Of a stretch of DNA of 33,770 nucleotides, positions 5,862-33,510 are shown piece after piece. Within the stretch, counting starts at the first letter, position 1. Each line of letters opens with the position of its first letter. Under the pieces are notes generated by a model. It saw only the letters and a program-made list of their open reading frames with translations, was not told where the DNA came from and did no database searches. Made by a program: the position numbers and the translations under genes. The DNA comes from a virus: positions 1 through 33,770 of IMG/VR virus record IMGVR_UViG_3300017713_000034. The stretch is one strand, 5' to 3'.

Positions 5862-6494
5862 TTATTGTGTGCCTAAATAGCTAGTGCCTAAAGCAGCGCC
5901 GCCTTCAGCCATACCAGCAAAAGCAGCCTGTTGAGCCGCTTGGGCTTGTTGAGCCGCCTGTCTATGAGCCGCGGTTTCGCCCTGAGCCATACCAAGCATA
6001 GTCTCTGCTATATCTCTTTTTTGTCCTCTAGCCCAGACTTCACCTTGTCTTTCCATGCTTTGGTTTGAAGCCTCTTGTTGAGCCGCCAGTCGTTGGTTAG
6101 CAGCCTCTTGCTGACCTATGCTAGCTGAAGCCTGTTGAGCTGCCAACGAGCCTTGGTTAGCCATGGCCTGCGCCAGCGCCGCAATACCGCTACCACCAGC
6201 CGCGCCCTTCATACTATCTAATATATTAGCCTGAGACTGCATGGTTTGTTGTTTTTGAAATTCAGCTTGCTGTTGGTTTACAGTTAAGTCCTCCATAACG
6301 TTCTCCATATTTGCATATGGATTAGACGTGTCCAAGTTGGCGAAGATTCTTTGCTGTCGTTCCATTTCAGCCCTAGCTTGTTCTTCCTTCGCTTCAGCAG
6401 CCTCTCTAGCATTACCAGCAGATATAGCACCAGCTGTACCTCCAGCGGCTATTAAGACTCCTGATATAATTATTGCACCTGCTATAAACGACAT
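5862..6494 (-). CDS. Internal virion protein, T7 gp14-like
   Basis: 210 aa. Residues about 4-25 form one hydrophobic, Gly/Ala-rich membrane segment (IAGAIIISGVLIAAGGTAGA). The rest is an Ala/Gln/Glu-rich helical protein with many QQ and AAQ runs and a central segment DTSNPYANMENVMEDLTVNQ followed by GAAGGSGIAALAQAMANQGS. Size (T7 gp14 is 196 aa), a single N-terminal membrane segment, and a Gln/Ala-rich coiled body match the gp14-like internal virion proteins that form the trans-envelope channel during DNA ejection. Similar proteins are common in marine phages, from my knowledge of the family. It sits directly upstream of the two larger internal proteins, the usual arrangement for such a set. 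Confidence 0.8.
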   Translation of the reverse strand: MSFIAGAIIISGVLIAAGGTAGAISAGNAREAAEAKEEQARAEMERQQRIFANLDTSNPYANMENVMEDLTVNQQQAEFQKQQTMQSQANILDSMKGAAGGSGIAALAQAMANQGSLAAQQASASIGQQEAANQRLAAQQEASNQSMERQGEVWARGQKRDIAETMLGMAQGETAAHRQAAQQAQAAQQAAFAGMAEGGAALGTSYLGTQ

Positions 6495-17379: not shown

Positions 17380-18903
17380 TTAGTCTTGTAATAGCATGAA
17401 ATTGTTTGCTCCTTGAACAACTAAGCAACGCTCAGTTAAGAAGTGCATTTGCATTGCATCTAAGTCAGATGTAGCAGCTCCAACTGAACCAGTGGTCCAA
17501 GTCTTGAAACGACGATCATCCATCTCAGAAGCTCTGTAACGTACATGTAGGAAAGGACGCTTAAGGTTTCTACCTAGTGCCTGATCGTACACAGATGATA
17601 CACCTGCTGGAATGAATACACCGCGTGTGCGAGTACCATCACCAGAAAGAGCTCCACGTGTTTGTGAATCATTTAGGTATTTCCAGTCAGTCTTGTAGAA
17701 ATCGTAAGATCCACGACGGAATCCAGAGAATCCTAAGTTTAGAGCCATATCTGCCTCGTTATTGAATACACCGTAAGAAGTTCCATCAGCACCGTATGCG
17801 TTTTGACCTGCAAGCATGTCATCAACAATTAGAGAAGTGTTTCTATCCAAGAACATCATGTACTCTTCAATAGCACCCTGCTTATCAAACTCCTTAAGGA
17901 TAACATCAAAGTCAGCAAGAGAACCAGCTGCTGAACCAGAGTCAGTCGCAAGATCTAAGTCCGCAGAAACAAGTCCACGATCTTCAATAGCTTCGAAAAG
18001 ACCTTCAGTTCCTTTCATGTTAGCACCTGTGACAATAGCGTTTGTAGCTTTCACTGACTCTACCATAGACATCTCGCAGTAATCTGCAAAACGCATACGA
18101 GTATCACCAGCTGCCTTTAGGTACCAGTAGTAACCACCAGTTCCATCTTCACCGGAAACTTCAACCCAACCAATTTGAGCAGCATCAGAACCATTTACTT
18201 CGTAAAGATCCTTCATGATCTGCATGGTGTTAGCATGAGATTTAAAGTTTGGCTCAATACCTTCAAAGCGACCAGTAGTCCCTTTAGCGTGCATAGAACC
18301 GTAAACAACGACTACAAGAGCATCAGTGTCACCAGCGCCGTGAGCGTGCCCTAATGCCGCCTTATAGCTTGCAGTTCCTCCAATTGGAATAACTGAGATT
18401 TCACCAGAAGCTAAAGTAACCCCAGTAGTAGTTAAAGCTACATCAGTAGATCCATAGATAGATACTACTAGACAAGGAACTGTTTTGTTCTTTGTTGCTG
18501 AAGACACTAATACCGTGTCACCAACTCTTATACCGTGAGCGGTATCAAGATTAGAGATAATTGAGTTGTCACCACCAACTACATCCGCAGTAGCGTCACC
18601 TGAGCTATCATAATTCCCATGAACCTGACCTGTGTACTTAAGGTGTAAACGACCTTGCTCAGACCAAACGATTTGATCTGATGTTGCTGGCTCTTCCGCG
18701 CCAACCATTTCTAAAAATCCACCTACTGTTCTGTTTCCAAAAATTTCAGCTTCTTTTTCCATTAATTCTGGTAAATACTGTTGTCTCCAATCATTCGTCG
18801 ACGCTGTAAAGTCGAGATAGTTTGAAGCTAATGTTTGTTTACCTGGGGCTGCTGCTTGCACCGCTGCAATATCTGCTGCGCCCCTAGTTATACCTGTTGC
18901 CAT
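17380..18903 (-). CDS. Major capsid protein
   Basis: 507 aa. The N-terminal region (LASNYLDFTASTNDW, LPELMEKEAEIFGNRTVGG, SDQIVWSEQGRLHLKYTG) is the pattern I know from HK97-fold major capsid proteins of marine and crAss-like podoviruses, and the C-terminal domain contains LGFSGFRRGSYDFYKTDW and ends RCLVVQGANNFMLLQD. It directly follows the scaffold gene by 17 nt and ends before a strong terminator. Codon use in the C-terminal third favours TTC, TAC and CGT, fitting high expression. No N-terminal delta domain cleavage site can be decided by eye. Size is near the usual 450-510 aa for these phages. Confidence 0.88.
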   Translation of the reverse strand: MATGITRGAADIAAVQAAAPGKQTLASNYLDFTASTNDWRQQYLPELMEKEAEIFGNRTVGGFLEMVGAEEPATSDQIVWSEQGRLHLKYTGQVHGNYDSSGDATADVVGGDNSIISNLDTAHGIRVGDTVLVSSATKNKTVPCLVVSIYGSTDVALTTTGVTLASGEISVIPIGGTASYKAALGHAHGAGDTDALVVVVYGSMHAKGTTGRFEGIEPNFKSHANTMQIMKDLYEVNGSDAAQIGWVEVSGEDGTGGYYWYLKAAGDTRMRFADYCEMSMVESVKATNAIVTGANMKGTEGLFEAIEDRGLVSADLDLATDSGSAAGSLADFDVILKEFDKQGAIEEYMMFLDRNTSLIVDDMLAGQNAYGADGTSYGVFNNEADMALNLGFSGFRRGSYDFYKTDWKYLNDSQTRGALSGDGTRTRGVFIPAGVSSVYDQALGRNLKRPFLHVRYRASEMDDRRFKTWTTGSVGAATSDLDAMQMHFLTERCLVVQGANNFMLLQD

Positions 18904-18920: not shown

Positions 18921-20120
18921 TTAGCGTTTTCTATTTTTAATTTTCAACTTAAGTCCATCAGAAGAATCGCCTAGAACCTTCACTTTCACTCCGCCCACGT
19001 TGACTTCACCGTGAGTTTTACGAGGTTCTGTTTGAATGTTTTTATCCTTCGCGACACGCTCTTTAGTGGCATCAGCCCTACCCTGCTCGTAAAAGTGTTG
19101 GGCTACGGCATCAGCGTTCATAGCTGTAAATAGAGATTTGTGATATGCTTGAGCATCTGTCATAACACCTTTTTCATCAGTAAACTTACCAATAAAATTG
19201 TTTATGTCTGCCTGTGCACTCTTAGTCTCGTTAGCGTTTTTGACATTAAACCTATACTTTTTATCTCCAACGCTGTAGTCAAAACCTTTGAACTTGTCGT
19301 TAAAAACTTGATTGGTTTTTTTATCAAACGCCGATCGCGCAGTATCATTCATTTGTTTCTGCTGTTCGGACTCTTTGTTGTACCTGTTGAAGAAATCAAT
19401 TGCTTTCTGCTGCTCACTCGTGAGCTTGCTTCCAGCTTTAATCTCTTCGTAATATTTAGACTTTTGCCTGTCTAAGTGGGCTTTAGCCTTAGCAACTTGC
19501 TCTTTTAAGGCTATTTTTTTCTTTGTTATTTCTTTTTCATCATCTAACTCTTCATCAAACTTAAACTCATCTTCCATTATGAAGCTTCTTTCTTTTTCAC
19601 TTAGATGTGGTTTAGTCTGCTTGTAGTACTCCTGTAAAGCTTCTTGACTATCCATGTCCTCAACGTTAACGTTTAGCTTGACGTAGTCATTTATATCTCC
19701 ACCAGTGTCTTCCATGAAATCCACTAGTTTTTGAATGTTTTCAGGGAGCGGTTTGCCAGTAGCTTGAGCTTCTTCAATAGCCTCTACAGCTTCTTCAGCC
19801 AGTTCTTCTACTTCCTCTTCTTTTACCTCTTCTAATACTGGTGCCTCTCCTTGTACTTCTCCTTCCGGTTGTACTTCTTCTTGTTCTTGTGTGGGCTTGG
19901 GACTTTCATCGCCTCCAGCCACTCGTGAGTCGTCAGGGTTACTTTCTGGAGCTTCTGGTTCTTCGGTTGTTTCATTGGTTGGTGGTTTCGTTAGATCTAC
20001 CTTGATAACATCTGGCTCAGGTTGGAATTTTTTCATTTTAACCTTCACAACGTCATCACTAGTACTCTCAACCTCTTGAATTACCTCCTCGAGATCTGTT
20101 TGTTTGTTTTCTTCTGCCAT
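18921..20120 (-). CDS. Scaffold-like protein
   Basis: 399 aa. The first 170 residues are extremely rich in Glu, Pro and Val (EEVQPEGEVQGEAPVLEEVK) and probably disordered. Residues about 190-290 are Lys/Glu/Gln-rich coiled coil (EKEITKKKIALKEQVAKAKA). The C-terminus is basic (KVLGDSSDGLKLKIKNRKR). An acidic, helical protein with a short basic tail, placed between portal and major capsid genes, matches capsid scaffolding proteins, whose basic tail contacts the coat. No protease domain is visible. The assignment rests on composition and position. Confidence 0.82.
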   Translation of the reverse strand: MAEENKQTDLEEVIQEVESTSDDVVKVKMKKFQPEPDVIKVDLTKPPTNETTEEPEAPESNPDDSRVAGGDESPKPTQEQEEVQPEGEVQGEAPVLEEVKEEEVEELAEEAVEAIEEAQATGKPLPENIQKLVDFMEDTGGDINDYVKLNVNVEDMDSQEALQEYYKQTKPHLSEKERSFIMEDEFKFDEELDDEKEITKKKIALKEQVAKAKAHLDRQKSKYYEEIKAGSKLTSEQQKAIDFFNRYNKESEQQKQMNDTARSAFDKKTNQVFNDKFKGFDYSVGDKKYRFNVKNANETKSAQADINNFIGKFTDEKGVMTDAQAYHKSLFTAMNADAVAQHFYEQGRADATKERVAKDKNIQTEPRKTHGEVNVGGVKVKVLGDSSDGLKLKIKNRKR

Positions 20121-22540: not shown

Positions 22541-24760
22541 TTAATTTTTAATTATTGTTGATGTTAATCCAGTGTTCTTGTACTTGTTAATACGCAGGTT
22601 TAGAGGTTGTCTACTGGAATCGGGGTTTGGTTTATATAAGTGTCTATTACAAGCCATGATAGCCAAGCCTGAACTTATAGAAGCATCATGCTTAGTTCTC
22701 TTGTTTATATCAAATTTAGCCCAATCGTTTAGCGTGTCGCCAAAATACATTGTTCCATATGTGCCATCTTGCAATAAGCCAACGTGGTCATTTATGTACA
22801 TCTCAACAGCAGCAGCGTGTGCTTGTTTAATATCTTCGCTAGAGTTAGGCATACCACCCACCTCCTTTTCTGTAACAGATAGCTTATTCCAAAGCTTATC
22901 AGGTCTGTTCATGCTAAAACCCCTATATCCTCTTCTTCTAAGATAATACAAGAGCCTCGGCTTATTGTTCTCTGCGAGTATAGGCATGCCGTAAAACACT
23001 AGTGCCATTAGTACATCTTCAAAGAATATCTCTGCGGTTTGTGGTCTTGCTATATATTCTAGGAAGAACGTGTTAGCCGGTGCGTCTTCCATGGAGAATT
23101 TAGTTAATCCGTGTAAAGCGCCTTTCGAGCCGCGACCGTCAACAGTACCACTAATGTCGTAGCTATCACAGCCAAATGCTCCAATATGTTCGTTACCTGG
23201 ATGCTTAATTCCATTTTTTATAATTACGTTGTTTTGCAAACTTCCGCTAGGAACCCAGCTTATTTTAAACCTGCCGTTAGGGCTTGGGGTGAAATGAACT
23301 TGAGTGTCTTTTACACCATTAGCCCATTGAAAGTTTCCAGTTGTTAAAACGCCTGAATTCCTATTGCCTTCGTTATAATCTATTTGTTCGTATATTTTAA
23401 TTAGATTAAATATACTATTTTTAGTCTCATCTCTAAACGCGTGCTCCTCTGTTCTAGGGAACTGACGGTAAAACTCGTTTAAAGCGTCTTGATCGTCTCT
23501 TAAGCCATCAGCTTCATTATCCCAGTTCGTTATAACACCTACGTCTATTAATTCACCGTCTGGTCCCAGTCGTTCTCCATCACATGGATTATCAAAGACT
23601 GGAAGTCCGTATTCATCAATAAATCCTTCATAGTTCCATTCCATTGGGATAAAGAGAGAATAAAGCCCAGACTTCGTTTGTCCATTAGCATTTCGTCTTG
23701 ATACGTCAGAATCATTGTACAATTTTTTAAAGTTATCCCCACCTTTATCAAGAGCATTGCTGGTTGAACCCATCATGCACTTACCAACGATTCTACTACC
23801 TAACCTTAAACAGGTTTTAGTAACTCGCCAGTTATTTAATATGTTGTCAGGCCTCTCCCACTTACCACTCTCATCATGCACTAGTAGGCTTAACTTTTCA
23901 CCGTCATAGCTGTTGTCACCAGTGTTCTTCCAATCAATAGTAGTATCTAAACCAGCTAACTGTTCTAACTGCTCGTTGCTCTGTATTTTTTTACGAGTAA
24001 ACTTACTAGCAGGAACTCTATACGCAAGCTCGGATTTTGGACGATCCATACCATCTTGTATAGGTTTAAAGAAGAACGGGTAATTAATTGATATAGGTAC
24101 CACTTTGTCTGTAAACATTTTCTTTGCGTCGGAACCAGACTTAGAGAGTATCCCATATCTACTATCACTCGATATAGTGGCTAAGTTAACTGTTTCTGCA
24201 GAAGACATAAAAGAAAAACCTGAACGACGGTTCTTAAGGTAGCACATTCCATAGCATCTCTTATCTGCCTTGCAGGCTTCCCAGAATATAAAGAACAGTC
24301 TATTGGCCTCTCTAAAGTCTGGAGCTCCGACGTCAATCTTGCTCCATTGCAAATACATATAATGTGTACCTGTTATGTATGTCGGTACTCCGTTGTTTGT
24401 AAACCAGAATCCTTCTTCTCGTCGCTTGAATTCTTCGTCAATATAGTCGTACCACTTTTCTTTTTGTTCTTCTGGATAGTCTCTCCAGTCGAATATATTT
24501 TTAATGCGTTTAAGTTCTTTTGGATACTCCGCTTGAACCCACTTGTTTTTCTTGTGCTTAAACACGTTCTTGGGTGGTTTAGGCAAAGCTATCTTAAAGC
24601 CCTGTATCTCATATATGTCACCTATAATACCGTTTCGCGAAAGAACAACTAGATCATGTTCTTTGTTATACCCATAATTCCACTTCTTACCTCTGTTGAG
24701 TCTAGTAAGCGTAGTCTTTTTTATAGGCTGTATTATTTTATATAAACTCTGTTCGTACAT
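22541..24760 (-). CDS. terL: Terminase large subunit
   Basis: 739 aa. ATPase: a degenerate Walker A, KNRRSGFSF, at 176-184; Walker B hydrophobic stretch followed by acid pair LSLLVHDESGKW (Asp296, Glu297); coupling motif GSTSN at 331-335. Nuclease: GCDSYDISGT with Asp532, a second acidic site in the EIFFEDVL segment (577-584), and a third Asp in KHDASISSGLA near residue 702. These are the expected parts of a motor that packages DNA into the prohead and cuts it. The start shares one base with the upstream 91-aa gene (TAATG), and the portal follows after 2 nt. The length matches the long terminases of crAss-like and marine podoviruses. Confidence 0.92.
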   Translation of the reverse strand: MYEQSLYKIIQPIKKTTLTRLNRGKKWNYGYNKEHDLVVLSRNGIIGDIYEIQGFKIALPKPPKNVFKHKKNKWVQAEYPKELKRIKNIFDWRDYPEEQKEKWYDYIDEEFKRREEGFWFTNNGVPTYITGTHYMYLQWSKIDVGAPDFREANRLFFIFWEACKADKRCYGMCYLKNRRSGFSFMSSAETVNLATISSDSRYGILSKSGSDAKKMFTDKVVPISINYPFFFKPIQDGMDRPKSELAYRVPASKFTRKKIQSNEQLEQLAGLDTTIDWKNTGDNSYDGEKLSLLVHDESGKWERPDNILNNWRVTKTCLRLGSRIVGKCMMGSTSNALDKGGDNFKKLYNDSDVSRRNANGQTKSGLYSLFIPMEWNYEGFIDEYGLPVFDNPCDGERLGPDGELIDVGVITNWDNEADGLRDDQDALNEFYRQFPRTEEHAFRDETKNSIFNLIKIYEQIDYNEGNRNSGVLTTGNFQWANGVKDTQVHFTPSPNGRFKISWVPSGSLQNNVIIKNGIKHPGNEHIGAFGCDSYDISGTVDGRGSKGALHGLTKFSMEDAPANTFFLEYIARPQTAEIFFEDVLMALVFYGMPILAENNKPRLLYYLRRRGYRGFSMNRPDKLWNKLSVTEKEVGGMPNSSEDIKQAHAAAVEMYINDHVGLLQDGTYGTMYFGDTLNDWAKFDINKRTKHDASISSGLAIMACNRHLYKPNPDSSRQPLNLRINKYKNTGLTSTIIKN

Positions 24761-25035
24761 TATTTAGATCTACCCTCAGCAAATCCCTTGAATACTCTTT
24801 CTTTCTTTTCTTCAGGCGCTCTGCCTTCTAAAAGATTTTCTTCTTCTTGGATTCTGTTTAATATCTCGAAGGCGTCGAAGATCGCAAGCTTTTTTGTGGC
24901 AGCGGCATTCTTGAGTCTGTCAGCTGATATATCATCATCTGAGTCAACGATAGCTTCTTTAGCCACTTTAATTAATTCCTCAACCGCTTTGTGCCCAGCT
25001 TGGATTATATTCTTCTTCGTCTCCTTGATATTCAT
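24760..25035 (-). CDS. Small helical protein, candidate small terminase subunit
   Basis: 91 aa, wholly helical by composition (GHKAVEELIKVAKEAIVDSD, DRLKNAAATKKLAIFDAFEI) with an acidic centre and a basic C-terminal tail (FKGFAEGRSK). It lies directly upstream of terL with a one-base overlap, the classical place of a small terminase gene. I know similar proteins at this position in marine flavobacterial phages but not a proven function. No clear helix-turn-helix is visible. The start overlaps the double-GroES-like gene by 56 nt. Met1 is the only Met and is preceded by ACAATTAAAT, so this start is likely. TerS is an inference from position. Confidence 0.7.
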   Translation of the reverse strand: MNIKETKKNIIQAGHKAVEELIKVAKEAIVDSDDDISADRLKNAAATKKLAIFDAFEILNRIQEEENLLEGRAPEEKKERVFKGFAEGRSK

Positions 25036-25582
25036 ATTTAATTGTAATATACTTATTCATCACCCTGTAAAGCCTTTCTCCATCAATAACAAACTCAAAT
25101 TCATCGCCTGGTGAAAACCCTACTAACTCTCCGTTTTTAAACGTTCCGTCATTATGCTTAACAATACCTACTAAAGGCCTTTCTGACTCTACATCAAATG
25201 CATCAATAGACTTTATGGGCTTGACAAACGTAAAGCCAGGCATTGCCGCCCATTCTGCAGTTAGCTTGCTTGGTTTATACAAGAAAACCTGGTCTGATGA
25301 AACTAGATACTGATCTTCTTTTAAGAAAGACCTACTGTTTTTTTCATTACCGCGCACGTCATACCACCGTCTAAAAACATTGTGATGAACAACCACACTG
25401 TTACCTGGTTTGATAGGCGTGTTGTTTGTCAAAGGCACGCTTGTCACTTGACCAATTCTGTTTATGAATTGATGGTTTGATATTTCGGTGTTTAATATTA
25501 ATCCACCTTTACCAACAGGTATAGAGTTGTTATATCTTTCTCCCTGAGGTTTAACTACAAAGTCAAATAAACCTCTCATCAA
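24980..25582 (-). CDS. Two-barrel GroES-like (co-chaperonin-like) protein
   Basis: 200 aa. Residues about 5-103 can be laid on GroES: a strand (LFDFVVKPQGER), a mobile-loop-like GKGGLILNT at 24-32 (GroES has GGIVLT), a GQVTSVP strand (GroES GEVLAVG), IKPGNSVVVHHNVFRRWYDV (GroES VKVGDIVIF...), and a closing strand YLVSSDQVFLYK (GroES VLIMSESDILAI). Residues about 115-186 repeat the fold: PGFTFVKPIKS, PLVGIVKHNDG, FSPGDEFEFVIDGERLYRVM, NKYITIKYEY. I infer two fused GroES-type barrels, the first retaining a hydrophobic loop. Similar proteins occur in marine phages. It may cap the phage or host GroEL for capsid folding, or serve as a structural protein using the same fold. It overlaps its neighbours by 4 and 56 nt. 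Confidence 0.75.
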   Translation of the reverse strand: MMRGLFDFVVKPQGERYNNSIPVGKGGLILNTEISNHQFINRIGQVTSVPLTNNTPIKPGNSVVVHHNVFRRWYDVRGNEKNSRSFLKEDQYLVSSDQVFLYKPSKLTAEWAAMPGFTFVKPIKSIDAFDVESERPLVGIVKHNDGTFKNGELVGFSPGDEFEFVIDGERLYRVMNKYITIKYEYQGDEEEYNPSWAQSG

Positions 25583-26078: not shown

Positions 26079-26471
26079 TTACTTCTTTACTTTTTCTAGT
26101 GATCTACCACCGAAGTATGCGCCGATCACAGTTATTAATACTAATTGAAGAAGGTCTACATACGAGTCCTTCACGTTAAAATTGATTGCACCAGCATCAA
26201 TAAAGATCAACAGCATCGTGCATACTATTAAGAACACAAGAGTCAATGGCCTTACGTTCTTAGAGAGCCATGAGTCAGACTTAAGGTCTGCTTCCCAGCG
26301 AGACGTGATATTCTTCTCCATCTCGATTTCGTAGTTGGCTACTAATTCTTTTACTTTTCTTTTAGCCTCAAGCTTCTCGTCCTTTGACGTGATAAGGTTG
26401 TCTAATACCCCACCTACGCCTTCAACAAGCTCAGTAGCTCCACTTGAGAATATTTTACTAAGTACGTTCAT
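26079..26471 (-). CDS. Holin, 3TM (gene-transfer-agent) type
   Basis: 130 aa. The N-terminal 60 residues are helical and charged (VLDNLITSKDEKLEAKRKVK). The signature RWEADLKSDSWLSKNVRPL (57-75) leads into a membrane helix (TLVFLIVCTMLLIFIDAGAI) and a second one (VDLLQLVLITVIGAYFGGRS), ending with a basic tail. RWxAD...SDSWLS.N.RPL is the hallmark I know of the 3TM holin family (Pfam Holin of 3TMs). The protein would open the inner membrane for lysis. It overlaps the upstream gene by 14 nt. No endolysin is visible in this window. Confidence 0.82.
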   Translation of the reverse strand: MNVLSKIFSSGATELVEGVGGVLDNLITSKDEKLEAKRKVKELVANYEIEMEKNITSRWEADLKSDSWLSKNVRPLTLVFLIVCTMLLIFIDAGAINFNVKDSYVDLLQLVLITVIGAYFGGRSLEKVKK

Positions 26472-26829
26472 TAAATCTCTTCGTTTTCATTTGAAACTCG
26501 AGATTCTTGTTGAATTCATCGATATCATCTGGTGTACCCGTGAATCCAACGGTAGAGTTTTCAGATATAACATCGTCTCCGTCTTTAACGTTTTCAAGTT
26601 TTTCAGTATTGAGTGCTTCCTCCTTGTCTTTCTTTTTCTTTTTGGCTTGAGCCGCGTCTGAGCCGGCGTATGCACCAGCAACTTGCCCAATGCTATTTGC
26701 TATAGTGCCAAACAGAGCTCCAGGCACAGCTTCACCTGGCGCATGAGTGGCTGCTGCGCCCTCAATTAAAGCTTCGTTGGGCTTTTTAAACGGACCTGGA
26801 AGAGCGTGCCCTTTCATTTTGAACGCCAT
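26458..26829 (-). CDS. FKMKG-tagged small protein
   Basis: 123 aa beginning MAFKMKGHALPGPFKKP, the shared tag of this phage's small proteins (see findings). Residues 20-62 are Gly/Ala-rich with a weakly hydrophobic segment (ALFGTIANSIGQVAGAYAGS). Then comes KKKKKDKEE and an acidic tail. No enzymatic motif is visible. It sits between two membrane protein genes and overlaps the holin by 14 nt. Possibly a capsid-interior or virion-targeted protein. This is a guess from the tag. Confidence 0.72.
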   Translation of the reverse strand: MAFKMKGHALPGPFKKPNEALIEGAAATHAPGEAVPGALFGTIANSIGQVAGAYAGSDAAQAKKKKKDKEEALNTEKLENVKDGDDVISENSTVGFTGTPDDIDEFNKNLEFQMKTKRFNERT

Positions 26830-26832
26830 ATC

Positions 26833-27048
26833 TTATTTTTTTGCGAATTTCTCCATACCACTAATGCCGAATGATCCTAGAACCACCCAGACGAAAGAGT
26901 CATAGACAAATTTATTAATTACTAAATCAGTTCCAGCGAATCCAGAGACTGCGTCTAGTACCATTACGACAACCATTATCCCAAAGGCTATAAAACCTAT
27001 GATTGATTTCTCGTTCCAATCGTTTGTATCTTTAAATATTTCAAACAT
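26833..27048 (-). CDS. Small two-helix membrane protein, second holin-like candidate
   Basis: 71 aa with two membrane segments, about residues 16-38 (SIIGFIAFGIMVVVMVLDAV) and 48-66 (VYDSFVWVVLGSFGISGM), a charged N-terminus (FKDTNDWNEK) and a basic C-terminal end (MEKFAKK). Size and topology fit a class II holin or antiholin. Alternatively it may be a small phage membrane protein with no lysis role. It lies next to a 3TM holin, which supports a lysis link. Confidence 0.65.
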   Translation of the reverse strand: MFEIFKDTNDWNEKSIIGFIAFGIMVVVMVLDAVSGFAGTDLVINKFVYDSFVWVVLGSFGISGMEKFAKK

Positions 27049-27049
27049 A

Positions 27050-27490
27050 TTATCTATCTTTATCTCGTATCATATCGTCTATAGCCTTGTTGTAAACTTT
27101 ATCCGTATATGATTCATTGTTATAAAAAACACTTCGCTCTGAGGTTGGCATATCTTCTTCACCTAGTAAAATGCGATATATCCTAGTAACAAGCTGGGAA
27201 CATTTGAATGAAGTTTTGAATATAGAGTACTTAATACTCGTTCTGTTTCTGTGTCGCCAAACTTCTATCCACCCAGCTGACCGGAGTTTCTCCCACCTTT
27301 TCTTATCCCAAGAATATGTGTAAGCACCCTCGATAAATTCGTTACGGGTAAATCTACCCTTATGATCTAAATATATAAGTAGTTCTAGATCAGCATCAGT
27401 TAACCCGTAAGTCTTACAGGCCCACTTGCGCGTGAGCCTGTAGTACTTAAGGATATTCATATCACGCAAATCTTGCGCTGTTAATCGCAT
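27050..27490 (-). CDS. Winged-helix DNA-binding protein
   Basis: 146 aa. The segment LTDADLELLIYLDHKGRFTR (26-45), followed by WDKKRWEKLRSAGWIEVWRH and a beta-wing (RNRTSIKYSIF), has the spacing of a MarR-like winged helix, as seen in proteins of marine flavobacterial phages. The N-terminus (AQDLRDMNILKYYRLTRKWA) supplies another helix. It may be a late-gene regulator or a DNA-binding packaging protein near the terminase genes. Of the two TerS candidates, this one has the clearer DNA-binding pattern. It is 6 nt from the head gene and ends 1 nt before the next gene. Confidence 0.7.
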   Translation of the reverse strand: MRLTAQDLRDMNILKYYRLTRKWACKTYGLTDADLELLIYLDHKGRFTRNEFIEGAYTYSWDKKRWEKLRSAGWIEVWRHRNRTSIKYSIFKTSFKCSQLVTRIYRILLGEEDMPTSERSVFYNNESYTDKVYNKAIDDMIRDKDR

Positions 27491-27495
27491 TCAGA

Positions 27496-28275
27496 TTATA
27501 CCGCGTTAGCAGCTATAGCGAATGCAGCGGCAGTTAATGCAACGGCATCTTCGACATAGTAGTGAGTTCCATCACATACTACAGAGAATCTATCACCAGC
27601 GCCAGCCGCACCTTCAGAAGTATCTATTGATAATACACTAGCACCGATTCCAGAATCGTTAACGCCACCGCCATCAAGCTGTGTACCAATAATGTTTACA
27701 GCATTGTTGTTTGTAGATACAATTAAATCTTTTGTACCTTCAGCGTCTGAAGCAATATCAAGCATAAACGTATAGTTTAATCCAGCTACAGGATCCGGTA
27801 ACCTAAATGCAGCAGTATTAGTTGCAATGTTACACAAGAAAGTTGATCCTGAGTCAGCAGCTGTTAAAACGCGAGTATTAGCATCAGCAGCACCACCAGT
27901 AGCGTCGCCAGCAGGAGTTACATTTTCAACTTTTCTTAATGTAGCAGCAGTTGCTAGAGAAATAGTAGTAACACCAGTAATAGTATCATCACAGAACTTT
28001 GAACCAAAGGCATCAGCAATAACAGTAGCACCATAGTCATCAGCTCTAGAGCTACTCATTTTTCTAGCGATAGCAACCATAGCTTGTTTTTCAGAGTTAG
28101 CTGTAACAGCTAAAGTAATCTTATCGTAAGCGCTAGGCCCTACTGCAGAAGTAATTGGTGACTCAAAATATAAGTTAACAACAGCAGAAGCTGACTGCTC
28201 CATGCCTCTGAAGTTTGATACCGAATTAACGTATGCGTCATCCTCGCTACCACGAATGTAAATAAATTTGTTCAT
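27496..28275 (-). CDS. Candidate head decoration/fibre protein
   Basis: 259 aa. The N-terminal domain (about 1-75: MNKFIYIRGSEDDAYVNSVS, then KITLAVTANSEKQAMVAIAR) resembles a domain seen in small structural proteins of marine phages. A Ser/Thr/Ala/Gly-rich beta body follows (FRLPDPVAGLNYTFMLDIAS) with GAGDRFSVVCDGTHYYVED near the end, a motif type found in capsid-fibre proteins. No catalytic residues are visible. It has a 78-nt upstream region containing a short tandem repeat, so it may have its own promoter. Confidence 0.75.
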   Translation of the reverse strand: MNKFIYIRGSEDDAYVNSVSNFRGMEQSASAVVNLYFESPITSAVGPSAYDKITLAVTANSEKQAMVAIARKMSSSRADDYGATVIADAFGSKFCDDTITGVTTISLATAATLRKVENVTPAGDATGGAADANTRVLTAADSGSTFLCNIATNTAAFRLPDPVAGLNYTFMLDIASDAEGTKDLIVSTNNNAVNIIGTQLDGGGVNDSGIGASVLSIDTSEGAAGAGDRFSVVCDGTHYYVEDAVALTAAAFAIAANAV

Positions 28276-28314
28276 TTTTGTTTTAAATAATTAGTTGTTT
28301 GAGATTTATATTGC

Positions 28315-28335
28315 TTGTGGTTTGTGATTTGTGGT
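28315..28335. repeat. Tandem heptamer repeat (3 copies)
   Basis: TTGTGGT, TTGTGAT, TTGTGGT in direct order, one base different in the middle copy. It lies in the 78-nt gap between the SET gene and the 259-aa gene, upstream of the latter on the minus strand. Possibly a binding site for a regulator or a chance low-complexity stretch. Confidence 0.5.
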
Positions 28336-28353
28336 ATAGGTCTATTATATATA

Positions 28354-28728
28354 TTACACATAATATGCTTTTTCTAAAGAATGCTGTCGGTAGTCAACTA
28401 ATACCTCTTCGTTAGCAGTTATATTTTTAATAGCCACCATCACGACATCTCCAGCTTTAGTGTAGTAGAACCTAGCATTAGGGTCATCAGAGTGATTTGT
28501 CCACCTACCCAAAGGAGTTCTATATTTTCGATCTATGCTACCCAACCCTATGACCAGCTCCTCTTGTATGTCCTTTGTTGCGAATATGCCAACGCCATGG
28601 ATATTTGAGTGATCTTTGTAATACAAGTCACTATCAAACTCTATTACATTATCCACGTTAGTTATGCGTGACATCTCTTGCTCGGACACTCCCACGTCAA
28701 CGAGCATCTGCTTGTATTTACTCAACAA
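28354..28728 (-). CDS. SET-domain protein (lysine methyltransferase-like)
   Basis: 124 aa, close in size to the small chlorovirus vSET (119 aa). SET motifs in order: HGVGIFATKDI (44-54; GxG of the cofactor site), RWTNHSDDPNARF (75-87; the NHSxxPN motif, here N78-H79-S80-D-D-P83-N84), and NEEVLVDYR (106-114; the GEELxxDY motif with Tyr113). These form the S-adenosylmethionine site and the catalytic Tyr. The N-terminal 43 residues are extra. The ATG overlaps the GroES stop region by 11 nt, so translation is probably coupled. A role on chaperonin or virion lysines is a guess. Confidence 0.85.
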   Translation of the reverse strand: MLSKYKQMLVDVGVSEQEMSRITNVDNVIEFDSDLYYKDHSNIHGVGIFATKDIQEELVIGLGSIDRKYRTPLGRWTNHSDDPNARFYYTKAGDVVMVAIKNITANEEVLVDYRQHSLEKAYYV

Positions 28729-28975
28729 GCACTATATCTTTAAGTCTAATAACTTTGTACATACTGTCTTTATACGCTATACTGTGACCAGCTCTACTGT
28801 CGTAATATACTATATCGCCTTTTTTTACGACGTCAACTACGTGTCCAGTTGTTATTATGTTTGCTTTTTTATATCTATTGTCTTCATCTGTTTTATCCGT
28901 AAGAAGCAATCCACCAGACGTCTTTTTCTCTTCTTTAATCTCAGACACAACGACTACATCATTTAACGCTTTCAT
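28718..28975 (-). CDS. groES: Co-chaperonin GroES
   Basis: 85 aa (E. coli GroES is 97). The first strand is MKALNDVVVVSEI. The mobile loop is KKTSGGLLLTD (18-28), with GGLLL in place of GGIVL, so it can engage GroEL apical helices. The next segments, VVDVVKKGDIVYYDSRAGH and MYKVIRLKDIVLVE, match the barrel strands and the closing DIxAI segment. The protein would cap GroEL rings during folding of phage proteins such as the capsid protein. The start overlaps the GroEL end by 17 nt. GroEL comes first here, the reverse of the usual bacterial groES-groEL order. Confidence 0.88.
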   Translation of the reverse strand: MKALNDVVVVSEIKEEKKTSGGLLLTDKTDEDNRYKKANIITTGHVVDVVKKGDIVYYDSRAGHSIAYKDSMYKVIRLKDIVLVE

Positions 28976-30527
28976 CTGCTCTTACATTTGAAATTACACA
29001 ATCAGCTGACATAATAGTTGTAGCTACACTAACGGCATTTTTAAGCGCTGACTTTGTAACTAGCACTGGATCAATAATACCAGCTTTCACCATATCTACA
29101 CATTTACCAGTTACCACGTCTATACCGCAGTACTCTTTGTTTTCACACGAATCACCACTAATACCAGCGTTATCTAATATGGTATAGAAAGGAGATTTAA
29201 TGGCTTCAAGCAAAGCTTCTTCTCCCGCGTTTTCGGGTGATATCTTTTGCGAGGCCCAATACAACGCTGAACCACCGCCAGGCACTATACCTTCTTTTAA
29301 TGCAGCTTTAGTAGCATAAATAGCATCTTCACATCTATCGCGCTTTTCTTTAAGCTCAACTTTTGAGCTAGCGCCAACCCTAACTATACCGACGCTACCA
29401 GATAACATGGCTAATCTTTGCTCTTGCTTTTCTTTGAAATAACCGTTCTTTTCTTCAGCTATATCACTCTCTAGTCTTTCAATACGCTCAGCTAGATCAT
29501 CTGGCATGTCATTTACAGTAAGAACTGTAGTCTTGTCATCTGTCACTGCAAAGTCAGCTTCACCTAAGTGATCTATGCTTATAAGATCTAGATCATCACC
29601 TAACTCTTCGTTTATAACAGTTGATCCAGTTATGATAGCAATATCCTCCATAGAATCAGGTCTATTAGGTCCAAAGCCAGGTTGATCAATAATATTTACT
29701 TTAATATTGCCTTTAACTTTGTTCATAAGTAGAGCTGACTTCACTTGCTGTGAGACCTGCGCGATAATAAGTAAAGACCTGTTATTTTTGATAGCGTGCT
29801 CTAACACACCCTGTATTTTTCTAATATTAGATATCTCAGACATAACTGTTAGAACTAAAGGATTATCTAGCTCTGCAATATGCTTATCGGCATTAGTAAT
29901 AAAATGTGGGGATGTTAGGCCGCAGTCCATTTGCACGCCATCTACAACGTCAACCGTTGTGTCTTCTGTCTCGGAGGTCTCCATGAGCACTACTCCGTTT
30001 TTACCTACTTTTTCGTAGGCTTTAGCTATAACTTCTCCTAGCTCGTTATCGTTATTGCACGAGATAGAGCTTACTGACTTAAGCATGTCACCTTCAACTT
30101 CAACAGACATATCATCTAGGAAGCTGCATACCTTGTCAAATCCAGTTGTTACGCCTTCCTTTAATTCTCTTATTGTGTGATTTTGCATAGACTCGTCTAA
30201 CGAATCAATTAATGCTTCAGTAAGTACGGTCGCCGTGGTTGTTCCGTCTCCAGCTTCTCTTACTGTGTTTTGAGCTGACTCCCTTACTAGTGTCGCTCCC
30301 ATGTTTTCGACCGGATCATATAAGACTACGCTCTCCGCAACGGTTACACCGTCTTTTGTTATGACCGGCTTACCGCGTCCATCTTCATATATAACGCATT
30401 TACCTGATGCGCCAAGTGTGGATTTCACGGCTTTAGCTAGTTTTTTAGCACCAGCAATTACTTTTTCTTTAGCGGGTTGGCCGAAGTCTAAATTCTTCAC
30501 CACCTCGCTAGGCAAGTTATATTCCAT
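28959..30527 (-). CDS. groEL: Chaperonin GroEL
   Basis: 522 aa (E. coli 548). Nucleotide site: KLAKAVKSTLGASGK and GDGTTTATVLTEALI (Asp of GDGTT), PGGGSALYW, and the CEDAIYATKAAL segment with the Asp equivalent to D398. The apical domain has LLIIAQVSQQVKSALLMNKV and IIDQPGFGPNRPDSMEDIAI, like GroEL helices H/I and the loop after them. The C-terminal GIIDPVLVTKSALKNAVSVA also fits. The C-terminal GGM tail of bacterial GroEL is absent. It should act as a complete ATPase chaperonin, with the phage GroES and possibly the 200-aa protein. The leader is TTTAATTTAATTTAATACAAT. Confidence 0.95.
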   Translation of the reverse strand: MEYNLPSEVVKNLDFGQPAKEKVIAGAKKLAKAVKSTLGASGKCVIYEDGRGKPVITKDGVTVAESVVLYDPVENMGATLVRESAQNTVREAGDGTTTATVLTEALIDSLDESMQNHTIRELKEGVTTGFDKVCSFLDDMSVEVEGDMLKSVSSISCNNDNELGEVIAKAYEKVGKNGVVLMETSETEDTTVDVVDGVQMDCGLTSPHFITNADKHIAELDNPLVLTVMSEISNIRKIQGVLEHAIKNNRSLLIIAQVSQQVKSALLMNKVKGNIKVNIIDQPGFGPNRPDSMEDIAIITGSTVINEELGDDLDLISIDHLGEADFAVTDDKTTVLTVNDMPDDLAERIERLESDIAEEKNGYFKEKQEQRLAMLSGSVGIVRVGASSKVELKEKRDRCEDAIYATKAALKEGIVPGGGSALYWASQKISPENAGEEALLEAIKSPFYTILDNAGISGDSCENKEYCGIDVVTGKCVDMVKAGIIDPVLVTKSALKNAVSVATTIMSADCVISNVRADESVK

Positions 30528-30573
30528 ATTGTATTAAATTAAATTAAAGTGGTATTATTTTTGTTTGGTATTT

Positions 30574-30798
30574 TTAATCTTTTTCCGCCTGTCTATCTTC
30601 TAAAAACTTTTCTACGACACGCCCGCCCTGCACTAACACGCTGTCACCAACGTTAAACAGGACGCCCTGCAAATCTCTTGTGAAATAATCCTCACCATCA
30701 GTACCCATAAAGCTTTTTTCATCTTTACTAATCTCTTTAACCTTCACCATAGTCGGCTTCTTCTGGGTAAAAGCCGAGCCTTTCATTTTAAATGCCAT
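30574..30798 (-). CDS. FKMKG-tagged small protein with a beta barrel-like body
   Basis: 74 aa beginning MAFKMKGSAFTQKKPTM. The rest (KVKEISKDEKSFMGTDGEDY, VLFNVGDSVLVQGGRVVEKF) looks like a small SH3- or KOW-like barrel, because VLFNVGDSVLVQGGRVV has the spacing of such strands. It is the gene immediately before groEL, separated by 46 nt. The tag and the barrel suggest a small adaptor or virion protein. No enzyme motif is visible. Confidence 0.7.
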   Translation of the reverse strand: MAFKMKGSAFTQKKPTMVKVKEISKDEKSFMGTDGEDYFTRDLQGVLFNVGDSVLVQGGRVVEKFLEDRQAEKD

Positions 30799-30809
30799 GA
30801 TTATCTTAT

Positions 30810-31448
30810 TTATTGATCTTCGTGAGGACCAAGTTTACCGCTACCTTTCTTAGTTTTTCCGCTTGGGTATGTGAAGGATTTTTTGGTCTTCTCTAAGTCC
30901 CTTCGTTCTTGATCCGATTCAAAGTAGTAATCTCTTGCGCGGTCTATACCCGACCTCCTCATATATTCACTCTCGGTATTTCGAAAGTCAGAAGCCCAAT
31001 CCATTTCATTCTCCAATATTCGCAAATCCTTATTGGCTTTTTTAGTTGCTTCATCTAATTCCTTTTGGTTCCTCATAACCGCATCAGAATCAGCGCCTTT
31101 AACGGTCTGCTTTAAGTGAGATTTAGTTCCTTTAATCATTGGGAACCCTTTCATTTTAAATGATGCGTCGTCGTACATCTTGTGCGCCGAGTCGTCTTTT
31201 TTGCCGTAGCCCATGTCTTTTTTTGTTAATGGTGTCTCTAATACTATATCACCTGGAAAGTTGTAATCTTTACCAGGCTCCATGATCTTTTCGTTACCTA
31301 AGTTATCTACGCCATGAACAGGGAAATCTACGTCTTCCATGGTTATATCCCCGCTGGCTATTAAATTTTGTTTATTGTTTACGTCTTTTGAATCTCTTTT
31401 ATACCCATTAGTACTAAACATAGCGGGTTTGTCTAACTTAAAAGACAT
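30810..31448 (-). CDS. Basic, Lys/Asp-rich protein with an internal FKMKG tag
   Basis: 212 aa. It starts MSFKLDKPAMFSTNG, a weak form of the shared tag, and has a full copy inside (SFKMKGFPMIKG, 96-107). The protein is charged and probably partly disordered, with helices at about 120-150 (QKELDEATKKANKDLRILEN) and 165-190. The C-terminus is basic (KKSFTYPSGKTKKGSGKLGP). The internal copy suggests either a fusion of two tagged proteins or a processed precursor. It ends 11 nt before the 74-aa gene. Confidence 0.7.
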   Translation of the reverse strand: MSFKLDKPAMFSTNGYKRDSKDVNNKQNLIASGDITMEDVDFPVHGVDNLGNEKIMEPGKDYNFPGDIVLETPLTKKDMGYGKKDDSAHKMYDDASFKMKGFPMIKGTKSHLKQTVKGADSDAVMRNQKELDEATKKANKDLRILENEMDWASDFRNTESEYMRRSGIDRARDYYFESDQERRDLEKTKKSFTYPSGKTKKGSGKLGPHEDQ

Positions 31449-31449
31449 G

Positions 31450-31698
31450 CTATTCAGAATCTTTAGCTCTAGTGCCTTCTTGAAACTTATCTACATAAAT
31501 AGGATACTCTTCAAGCTTCGGAGTTGTTTCGTCAAGCTCGAGTTTATGCTTCTGATACCATAAAGTTCTTTCTTGAGTACCAGATTTTGGCGCTTTACTC
31601 CAGTCCGGCTTACTAGTCTGTTTTAAGCTAGAAATACCCTCTAGATCTTCATTCCTTGTTTGGTCATGAAATGTTATGCCTTGCATTTTAAACGCCAT
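31450..31698 (-). CDS. FKMQG-tagged small protein
   Basis: 82 aa. It begins MAFKMQGITFHDQTRNE, one residue from the FKMKG tag. The rest is polar and charged (KPDWSKAPKSGTQERTLWYQ) with a hydrophobic patch, and ends acidic. No known domain is visible. It starts 10 nt after the previous gene and ends 1 nt before the 212-aa protein gene, so all three are coupled in one transcript. Function unknown. Confidence 0.7.
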   Translation of the reverse strand: MAFKMQGITFHDQTRNEDLEGISSLKQTSKPDWSKAPKSGTQERTLWYQKHKLELDETTPKLEEYPIYVDKFQEGTRAKDSE

Positions 31699-31708
31699 AT
31701 TGTGTATA

Positions 31709-31999
31709 TTAGAATGTTTTTACTACTTTCGGCCCTTTTGTAGCCTCTAGTTTCTTTGAGAAGTAGTCGATGCTGCCATCAATTGCAGATTCTGCGCCTT
31801 CCATAGTCTCTCTACGCGTAACTGCGTGCCAATTATCGTCAATTGCAGGGTGAGAAACCTCTGTTTGGTAAAATCCGTTAGGTAATTGGGTAATTCGCCA
31901 GTTAGATTTTGCAGACATGTGCGTCCACTCGTCTATTTCTTGTTTATTTGGCTTTGCAGTGTGCGTCGTAGACGACGTCTTATAGTATAAATAGGTCAT
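31709..31999 (-). CDS. Uncharacterised 96-aa protein
   Basis: 96 aa with an N-terminal Tyr/Thr/His-rich strand region (MTYLYYKTSSTTHTAKPNKQ), a Trp-containing core (NWRITQLPNGFYQTEVSHPA) and a helical C-terminus (ESAIDGSIDYFSKKLEATKG). It lacks the FKMKG tag of its neighbours. No domain recognised. A leader AAACCATAAAT precedes the ATG. A hairpin sits 28 nt upstream. Confidence 0.65.
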   Translation of the reverse strand: MTYLYYKTSSTTHTAKPNKQEIDEWTHMSAKSNWRITQLPNGFYQTEVSHPAIDDNWHAVTRRETMEGAESAIDGSIDYFSKKLEATKGPKVVKTF

Positions 32000-32026
32000 A
32001 TTTATGGTTTTAGGTTATATATAAGG

Positions 32027-32045
32027 TATAGGGATTTTCCCTATA
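32027..32045. other. Perfect 8-bp hairpin between two genes
   Basis: TATAGGGA (32027-32034) and TCCCTATA (32038-32045), 3-nt loop. On the plus strand it is followed by TTTTTATT, so it resembles a terminator for plus-strand transcription, although no plus-strand gene is present. On the minus strand it follows the 131-aa stop codon by 6 nt, without a good U-tract. It may be a transcript-processing or stability hairpin. Confidence 0.5.
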
Positions 32046-32051
32046 TTTTTA

Positions 32052-32447
32052 TTAGTATTTTGAGCCCGTGAATCCTTCGCCGTCAGTGTAAGCTTCAATT
32101 ACTTTATTGACTTCTGCGACATCTTTAGCTTCTTCTGGATAGAATTTTGGATCAAGACCCATACCAGCCTCTTTCATCGCATTTCTTGCGTTATCACGGT
32201 TGTACGACCAGCTTCCACTTTCGTCGTCTTTTGTAATTATACCAAGCTCTTTTGCTTTATCACTAGTCTCTTTACTAATAGTCGTCACCTCGGCGCCTTT
32301 ACCCTCGTTGAATTCCATTGCTTGTCGAATAGCCGCTTGCTTCTCATCCTCAGTCATTTCTTGCTTAAATGCTCCTGGGAAGTTTTTTTGAAATGGATTT
32401 TTTCCGCCCTTTAGCTGAAATCCGGTACTCTTGTTAAAATTAGGCAT
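32052..32447 (-). CDS. Small helical protein with a degenerate tag
   Basis: 131 aa. It begins MPNFNKSTGFQLKGGKNPFQ, followed by KNFPGAFKQ. FQLKG at 10-14 resembles FKMKG, and the following PFQK and AFKQ elements resemble the second half of the tag. The remainder is mostly helical and acidic (TEDEKQAAIRQAMEFNEGKG, ETSDKAKELGIITKDDESGS). No enzyme motif is visible. It lies between the 130-aa beta protein and the 96-aa protein, and its stop codon is followed by a hairpin (32027-32045). Confidence 0.7.
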   Translation of the reverse strand: MPNFNKSTGFQLKGGKNPFQKNFPGAFKQEMTEDEKQAAIRQAMEFNEGKGAEVTTISKETSDKAKELGIITKDDESGSWSYNRDNARNAMKEAGMGLDPKFYPEEAKDVAEVNKVIEAYTDGEGFTGSKY

Positions 32448-32461
32448 TGTTTTAGTTTTTA

Positions 32462-32854
32462 TTATCCTTCGTGGAATAGTATGTGCTCTACTTTAATAGA
32501 GGCATCACTCATTTTTAATTTGAAATCTCCTGTTGTAGCCCATGGTATTAGAGCTACATCCCCTGCGTATAGATGGCCTACGTCTTCGGCTTCTATTGTT
32601 ACAGTAACAAAATGTGCGGCGTTTGTAGAGGCGTTCCTTAAATATACTTTAGCAGCCTCATCGTCGTTGTAGCTACCCTTTGCGTATAAAACAAAAGCGT
32701 TCGTGTCGGCTGCTTGCGTTACACCCAAACCTGTTGTTTGAGCTATCGCGGTAGTGTTTCCACCCTGTGTTAATGTTGCTGTAGCGTCTATCGCTAAAGT
32801 GCTAGACAGTAGATCTGCACTAGATATTACTAATCGTGTTGTTGTAGTTGGCAT
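32462..32854 (-). CDS. Small beta-rich virion-type protein
   Basis: 130 aa, Thr/Ala/Val-rich with alternating strands (TTRLVISSADLLSSTLAIDA, AHFVTVTIEAEDVGHLYAGD). The end (ALIPWATTGDFKLKMSDASI, KVEHILFHEG) is the pattern I know from capsid-decoration or small tail proteins in marine phages. No catalytic motif is visible. It could form a trimeric or pentameric surface protein. Its gene lies 14 nt after the preceding stop and 4 nt after the metallopeptidase-like gene. Confidence 0.72.
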   Translation of the reverse strand: MPTTTTRLVISSADLLSSTLAIDATATLTQGGNTTAIAQTTGLGVTQAADTNAFVLYAKGSYNDDEAAKVYLRNASTNAAHFVTVTIEAEDVGHLYAGDVALIPWATTGDFKLKMSDASIKVEHILFHEG

Positions 32855-32858
32855 TTTA

Positions 32859-33215
32859 TTATTTGTTTTCTGCTGCTATAGCTTCTTGTTCCCATGGGTG
32901 ATTTTCGTCTCCTTCTGGCCATCTCCCGTTCGGGCCGTCTATATATCCGTTATTTCTAAAGTAGATCTTACCTTCCCACATAACCCAGTTCTCACCATAG
33001 GCAGCCCTTCCGTCTGCCATCTGATCTAGATGTTCCTGCTCGTGCTTTATAGCTGTCCTAAACATAGATGAGTTTGGATCTACATCTTCATTAACGTAGA
33101 TGCTACCATCCATATTGGCTTCTGCTATAATGTTATCATCAAGCTTCTTCCTATATATAGGAGCATTAGACGAATTCCTTACCTTTCTACCCTCTTGGCC
33201 CAATGCGAATGACAT
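32859..33215 (-). CDS. Small HExxH metallopeptidase-like protein
   Basis: 118 aa. Residues 58-62 read HEQEH, a complete HExxH zinc-site motif inside a helix (FRTAIKHEQEHLDQM). A possible third ligand lies in NHPWEQEAIAAE near the C-terminus (Glu109 or Glu111), spaced like a gluzincin. The core GENWVMWEGKIYFRNNG is a strand pair between the two. The N-terminus (MSFALGQEGRKVRNSSNAPI) is basic. The family is unnamed as far as I know, though similar proteins appear in marine phages. Proteolysis of virion precursors or of host proteins is possible but unproven. It starts 4 nt after the 96-aa basic protein. Confidence 0.75.
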   Translation of the reverse strand: MSFALGQEGRKVRNSSNAPIYRKKLDDNIIAEANMDGSIYVNEDVDPNSSMFRTAIKHEQEHLDQMADGRAAYGENWVMWEGKIYFRNNGYIDGPNGRWPEGDENHPWEQEAIAAENK

Positions 33216-33219
33216 GCCG

Positions 33220-33510
33220 TTATGCGTATAGAGACTCTAACCCTTCCTCTCCTTGGTGAGTACTTAGAGCGCCCTTTGCTTGAGAGTGTGACGTACGGCC
33301 TGCAATTGCTTTAGCTATAGCTCTCTTAGCTGGACCACCTACAGCTTTATCAACAGCTACCGATGCATGTGATTGCGGAGAACCAGAAAATTGGCCACCC
33401 TTTCCTGAAGTGAATCCCTTTTTTTCGGATAACGTTTTAGTTTTCTTCTTTGGTGGATCTTTCTTTGGAGGCGTCTTACCGGGCTTCTTTTGCTTAAATG
33501 GACTTGCCAT
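33220..33510 (-). CDS. Basic, Lys/Pro-rich small protein, first gene of the cluster
   Basis: 96 aa. It begins MASPFKQKKPGKTPPKKDPP and stays very basic to residue 30. SPFKQKKP matches the second half of the tag of the 74-aa protein (SAFTQKKP). The centre (GGQFSGSPQSHASVAVDKAV) is Gly/Ser-rich and the C-terminus is a helix (GPAKRAIAKAIAG). Its positive charge suggests binding to DNA or to acidic capsid surfaces. It is the first gene after the 260-nt non-coding region. The leader is AAAAAAACACAATATC. Confidence 0.7.
   Translation of the reverse strand: MASPFKQKKPGKTPPKKDPPKKKTKTLSEKKGFTSGKGGQFSGSPQSHASVAVDKAVGGPAKRAIAKAIAGRTSHSQAKGALSTHQGEEGLESLYA

Follow-up and report, generated by a model that had tools for sequence, protein, structure and literature searches.

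Why should several unrelated small proteins, encoded around the chaperonin genes of a virus, begin with the same short peptide? The question is raised by IMG/VR virus record IMGVR_UViG_3300017713_000034, of which we analyzed the whole 33,770-base stretch (here called the window). Three of its minus-strand genes start with MAFKM[KQ]G, which we call the tag: t123 (positions 26458 to 26829, an open reading frame with an ATG start, tag codons at 26809 to 26829), beginning MAFKMKGHALPGPFKKP; t74 (30574 to 30798, tag codons at 30778 to 30798), which lies directly upstream of the GroEL gene and begins MAFKMKGSAFTQKKP; and t82 (open reading frame 31450 to 31698, tag codons at 31678 to 31698), beginning MAFKMQGITF. 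On balance, and with modest confidence, we read the tag as a peptide that, in phages of one uncultured marine clade, targets proteins to the capsid, and it may act by mimicking the tail of a predicted scaffold protein.

We looked into the other copies of the tag in the window, all of them on the minus strand, and found every peptide quoted by the first-pass annotation to be present. The product p212 (30810 to 31448) starts with the tag variant MSFKLDKPAM, continues with a 65-amino-acid (aa) beta domain (approximately residues 12 to 75), and then carries an internal FKMKG tag (SFKMKGFPMIKG, FKMKG at 31146 to 31160) followed by a helical body. It is a fusion of a tagged-type protein with a member of an 82-aa family that other genomes encode by a gene of its own; this fusion supports the internal copy, as does locus L053, where the tag precedes the same domain in the order tag, domain, DUF6321. 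The degenerate copy GFQLKGGKNPF in p131 (32052 to 32447, GFQLKGGKNPFQKN, FQLKG at 32406 to 32420) is supported by a likely orthologue in locus L103 (8172 to 8915) that starts MAFKLKGGKNPMQKNF; the t82 homologue in L103 begins MAFKMHGMTFHDHTRN. Two variants had been missed by the first-pass annotation, namely, MSFKLDKPAM of p212 and MSFALG (33198 to 33215) at the start of p118, a small HExxH metallopeptidase (32859 to 33215). The product p96 (33220 to 33510) has a second, SPxK-type motif at its N-terminus, MASPFKQKKP (SPFKQKKP at 33481 to 33504).

The tag exceeds random expectation. Counted over 31 whole records, [FY]K[MLI][KRQ]G was found 52 times among residues 1 to 30 of proteins and 5 times elsewhere, with a mean of 1.8 N-terminal occurrences for permuted versions, and M[AGSPT][FY]K[MLI] was found 83 times at N-termini and once elsewhere; about half of these records were picked for carrying the tag, so that the counts express a position effect and not a frequency. 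A codon-level scan of IMG/VR for MAFKMKG returned at least 119 stretches, versus 6 with a codon-permuted control; nearly all matches were true starts of open reading frames with differing bodies, up to seven per record. The consensus over 129 tagged proteins showed F3 and G7 to be invariant and M1, K4, M5, and K6 to be nearly so. Among 84,980 cellular genomes, we obtained 27 pattern matches, mostly within other genes or short frames, which look like chance, and we found no host or prophage with the tag. A tblastn search of phage records with the tag-consensus peptide and p212 gave no match, and the literature that we searched contained no paper naming FKMKG and none on DUF6321.

We then analyzed the distribution of the tag. 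With few exceptions, the tagged loci come from a single uncultured marine clade, kin to podovirus-like phages of Flavobacterium, Maribacter, and Cellulophaga. The first-pass annotation had mentioned FKMKGSP starts in marine phages; the spread beyond the window is borne out, and it narrows to this clade. The clade marker was the large terminase subunit (22541 to 24760, minus strand; phrog_6681, E = 9.8e-172), which is 71 to 93% identical between the tagged loci and the window, and a terminase tree placed tag-bearing genomes throughout the clade, including its deepest branches, with none among the outgroups. The module order common to the tagged loci is GroEL, GroES, p146, p118, holin-like protein, p200, terminase, portal, p399, and capsid protein. 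The structural module is also present in the cultured relatives that we compared (Podoviridae sp. MW202828, Maribacter phage Panino, Elemovirus [elemoA], and Cellulophaga phages phi38:1 and phi46:3). Judging by the hosts of these cultured phages, the clade probably infects Flavobacteriia. A divergent clade member (G029) has the tag solely on its p118-like protease; it also encodes a 2,601-aa, multi-domain-looking protein (L013, 6811 to 14616, minus strand). At one contig end of locus L228 (72 to 970, minus strand), the frames are very AT-rich with asparagine runs, and this end is possibly chimeric or misassembled.

The bodies behind the tag are indeed unrelated, as the first-pass annotation had stated: 190 tagged bodies fell into 96 sequence clusters, 77 of which are singletons. 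Matches to known families were few, namely, DUF6321 for 5/129 in a comparison with Pfam and several PHROGs with no assigned function. The body of t123 is an orphan, with phrog_18476 as its only match (E = 0.0027), and family searches with t74 gave no match. The clearest case of N-terminus exchange is the 65-aa domain of p212, which in deep lineages is untagged and starts directly (MKNLS..., MSIKGY...) and elsewhere is preceded by MRNSPLK, MSFKLDKPAM, MAFKLPG, MAFKMRK, MSKFKLKG, or MAFKMKG. Moreover, two bodies that are 72% identical have swapped N-termini, MAFKMKGFSGFK in L104 versus MAYKQKNNPFK in L033, and therefore one N-terminal type can take the place of the other. The second of these types, MAY[IVKT]Q.NNP[FI], was observed at L033 (7353 to 7607), at L047 (10143 to 10481), and in records G008, G012, and G037, and also on bodies that carry FKMKG elsewhere. 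A search by k-mer enrichment for another dominant tag in tag-free genomes recovered none besides SPxK-type starts and the p118 start.

At the DNA level, the synonymous codons of the tag match the codon usage of the genome, and the nucleotide identity of tags is equal within genomes (0.89) and between genomes (0.90). The DNA upstream of the tag is no closer within genomes either (0.43 within and 0.44 between). The core of the tag lies 2 to 9 residues from the initial methionine and is now and then internal. These codon, upstream-DNA, and offset results argue for selection on the peptide and not for a recent cassette duplication or an effect on translation start.

Tagged proteins are small (median, 120 aa) and differ in composition from untagged proteins of less than 350 aa, with 16.4% versus 9.1% lysine and a median net charge per 100 aa of +5.3 versus 0; hydrophobic residues make up 24% of tagged bodies versus 33%. 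A second motif, [SN][PA][AILMF][KQ], recurs in the tagged bodies at 5.43 per 1,000 aa versus 0.59 for permutations, approximately ninefold. With "late" defined as the strand of the longest (structural) gene, all 51 strict tags were late, compared with 982 late and 402 early among the 1,384 genes that have no motif (p = 7e-8), and of all 154 N-terminal motif matches, 151 were late and 3 early (p = 1e-17). In AlphaFold models, the p118 and p212 domains are folded and the tag or its variant lies in low-confidence segments outside them (predicted local distance difference test [pLDDT] of 91 to 96 for the p212 domain and 44 to 51 for its internal tag region; 87 for p118 and below 50 for its residues 1 to 7). 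The modularity, the protein-level conservation, the restriction to late genes, and the clade-wide occurrence strongly support the view, first put forward by the first-pass annotation, of a common targeting signal on unrelated bodies.

Two carrier families point to the virion. One is that of p212, whose 65-aa domain matches phrog_36695, a "virion structural protein," and by its fold matches S0A572, a structural protein of Cellulophaga phage phi4:1. The inner-type virion protein p210 (5862 to 6494, minus strand) is homologous to gp099 of phi38:1, which is annotated as a structural protein, and an N-terminal S-P-x-[KR] is found in 9/31 p210 orthologues, the p210 of the window being without the motif. 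Between the portal and the major capsid protein lies p399 (18921 to 20120, minus strand), a predicted scaffold on account of its position and its makeup, with 30% acidic residues in the first 150 aa and a basic end (tail GLKLKIKNRKR, about 18924 to 18959). The pattern [FL][KR][FILMVY][KR], written after the tails had been seen, occurs within the last 14 residues of 64/67 distinct p399 orthologues, compared with 2.1 for shuffled tails and 7/1,479 other proteins. The tail is most often FKFK, with DFKFKIKNK as the consensus, and is thus both conserved and similar to the tag (F-K-x-K).

The metallopeptidase p118 is conserved throughout the clade; its N-terminus is of the tag type, and its linker is variable. 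Among 103 distinct orthologues, 89 start with M..FK[MLI], mostly MAFKLG, MGFKLG, or MAFKMKG, and H57, E58, and H61 of the HExxH motif are invariant, as is PWE. In genomes chosen by terminase, blind to the tag, the usual start of the p118 orthologue is still MGFKLG or MAFKLG. Comparison with BFVD gave SprT-like matches (E of about 1e-3), a fold search of the PDB gave no match at E ≤ 0.001, and profile searches did not detect p118 in the cultured relatives. A role as prohead protease is possible but unsupported, because the fold, which appears SprT-like, is unlike that of known prohead proteases.

The late strand, two carrier families homologous to virion proteins, the lysine-rich bodies, and the likeness to the scaffold tail make capsid targeting the best explanation of the tag. 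The first-pass annotation had linked the tag to the capsid or the chaperonin, and it is the capsid part that is partly supported. The tag has the core M-A/G-F-K-M/L; K-G usually comes next, and an S-P-x-K motif is often present behind it. In the mechanism that we propose, the tag would mimic the basic and hydrophobic C-tail of p399 (DFKFKIKNK) and bind the same site on the inner face of the coat protein; the putative binding partner is the major capsid protein (17380 to 18903, minus strand; phrog_13704), the Calle_1 homologue of which is annotated as structural protein/major capsid protein. Alternatively, the tag might coassemble with the p399 scaffold tail and so load accessory proteins into the prohead. 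By either step, the prohead would take in tagged late proteins and the p118 metallopeptidase during assembly, and these would be packaged as internal proteins. We infer that tagged proteins are packaged into the virion, that they bind coat or scaffold, and that they are delivered into the host.

Comparable systems are known. In phage T4, the prohead protease removes the capsid-targeting sequence (CTS) by cutting at a specific site. The T4 internal proteins are diverse, conserve only the CTS, and contact DNA through their lysines only; the CTS is a short peptide that sends these small proteins to the prohead core (PMC3012670). Likewise, the clade has a common N-terminal peptide on unrelated small proteins, and the carriers are lysine-rich and highly diverse. 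In contrast to the T4 system, we claim no sequence similarity for the tag, saw no strongly conserved position after it that could be a cleavage site, and find it also on a metallopeptidase, in an unrelated phage group in which packaging of the carriers is putative. In herpesviruses, the protease UL26 and the scaffold UL26.5 have a common C-terminal coat-binding end (PMC12474303), which recalls the presence on p118 and many other proteins of a tag resembling the scaffold tail. However, the clade tag is a short N-terminal peptide on separately encoded proteins, p118 belongs to the zinc metallopeptidases, and coat binding is our proposal. In the P22 scaffold gp8, basic residues near the C-terminus anchor the scaffold to the coat (PMC9965877). 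The p399 C-tail is similarly conserved and basic/hydrophobic, but it forms an alternating F-K-x-K stretch, unlike the helix-turn-helix of gp8, and we claim no homology. We propose scaffold-tail mimicry on the basis of these P22 and herpesvirus coat-binding ends together with the likeness of the p399 tail. Capsid-targeting peptides being known, this one would have a different sequence and different carriers, and the phage group is unrelated. More tentatively, and with clearly lower probability, the tag could be a generic address for plug-in virion loading throughout the clade, copied from or convergent on the coat-binding tail of the scaffold, such that any late gene gaining approximately seven codons comes to encode virion cargo and the two address types, FKMKG and SPxK/NNPFK, are interchangeable on the same bodies.

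Several observations weigh against capsid targeting. The likeness of tag and tail spans four to five residues and was noticed after the fact, and comparison by eye only revealed no clear covariation between tag type and scaffold-tail type. The cultured relatives with annotated structural proteins carry no tag in the regions fetched. When genomes were chosen by terminase, blind to the tag, the strict tag was found in 4/80 loci and 1/14 whole records; since most of these genomes do not have it, the tag cannot be essential. A holin-like gene lies among the tagged genes, and late therefore need not mean virion. Finally, packaging of the carriers is read from indirect evidence.

The strongest rival, which we nevertheless consider unlikely, is that the tag serves as a signal for ejection or tail loading and directs proteins to the interior of the portal or tail for coinjection with DNA, in the manner of crAss001 cargo or the ejection proteins of P22, without binding to coat or scaffold. 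The second motif on p210 orthologues fits this idea, as does PhicrAss001, a podovirus-like Bacteroidota phage with a large store of internal proteins that keeps its cargo in both capsid and tail; on the other hand, that cargo consists of a few large proteins, and the part of the published account considered here describes no common N-terminal tag on them (PMC10172136). Within the clade, we saw no strict FKMKG tag on the large conserved late proteins, which also argues against an ejection signal.

It is rather improbable that the tag is an affinity module for some other late structure, such as an outer capsid decoration, the host membrane, a lysis complex, or a further site of assembly. Late expression is compatible with any of these, and both the holin-like gene (PF11351, below the cutoff) and the metallopeptidase are interleaved with tagged genes. 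However, the residues of the tag are not hydrophobic and show none of the marks of a secretion or lipoprotein signal, and the links of the p212 domain and p210 indicate the virion.

Docking to the phage GroEL/GroES as a mark of folding clients appears very improbable. The first-pass annotation had described the tagged genes as clustered around GroEL (28959 to 30527, minus strand; PF00118, E = 8.3e-56; phrog_5725). This holds for 40/50 tagged genes, which lie within 8 kb of GroEL (odds ratio, 4.3), t74 being its immediate neighbor, but the other ten lie 22 to 45 kb away. GroEL and GroES also occur in untagged clade members and in the untagged relatives L121 and L123, whose annotated GroES proteins match that of the window (28718 to 28975, minus strand). 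The link to the chaperonin is weakened by these untagged genomes, by the distant genes, and by the hydrophobic-poor, lysine-rich bodies, and we rejected chaperonin docking as the cause of the tag. That the tag is no signal at all but a remnant of genes that arose by duplication, or else an A-rich beginning that aids translation, is hardly credible: its codons are A-rich and many bodies are orphans, but we rejected such artifacts on the codon, upstream, and offset analyses and because the same body gains and loses the tag.

Almost all genes of the window are on the minus strand. Their order on that strand is p96, the p118 metallopeptidase, p130b, p131, a 96-aa protein, t82, p212, t74, GroEL, GroES, a SET-domain protein, p259, p146, t123, the holin-like p130, p200, terminase, portal, p399, the major capsid protein, p277, two "virion structural" proteins, a 1,867-aa protein, p210, and large proteins. 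The SET-domain protein (28354 to 28728, minus strand; PF00856, E = 4.6e-11) sits between GroES and p259; its gene, lysine-methyltransferase-like, adjoins those of lysine-rich late proteins, and homologues among the tagged loci were found in L016 and L055 only. Beside the terminase, p200 (24980 to 25582, minus strand) has counterparts annotated as GroES/cpn10 in Panino, Elemovirus, and phi46:3 and may be a second GroES-like gene in the packaging module. The holin-like protein (26079 to 26471, minus strand) matches PF11351 with an E of 1.6e-4, under the curated cutoff; it is conserved in the clade, and none was found in the cultured relatives.

If capsid targeting is correct, the tag shows a route by which uncultured marine phages make arbitrary proteins internal virion cargo, and the T4 capsid-targeting principle would extend to an unrelated phage group, with scaffold-tail mimicry as a molecular proposal. 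The role of many orphan late genes would become testable, and the tag would offer a compact address for putting proteins into phage capsids. For hundreds of uncultured genomes, part of what the virion contains could then be predicted from sequence alone.

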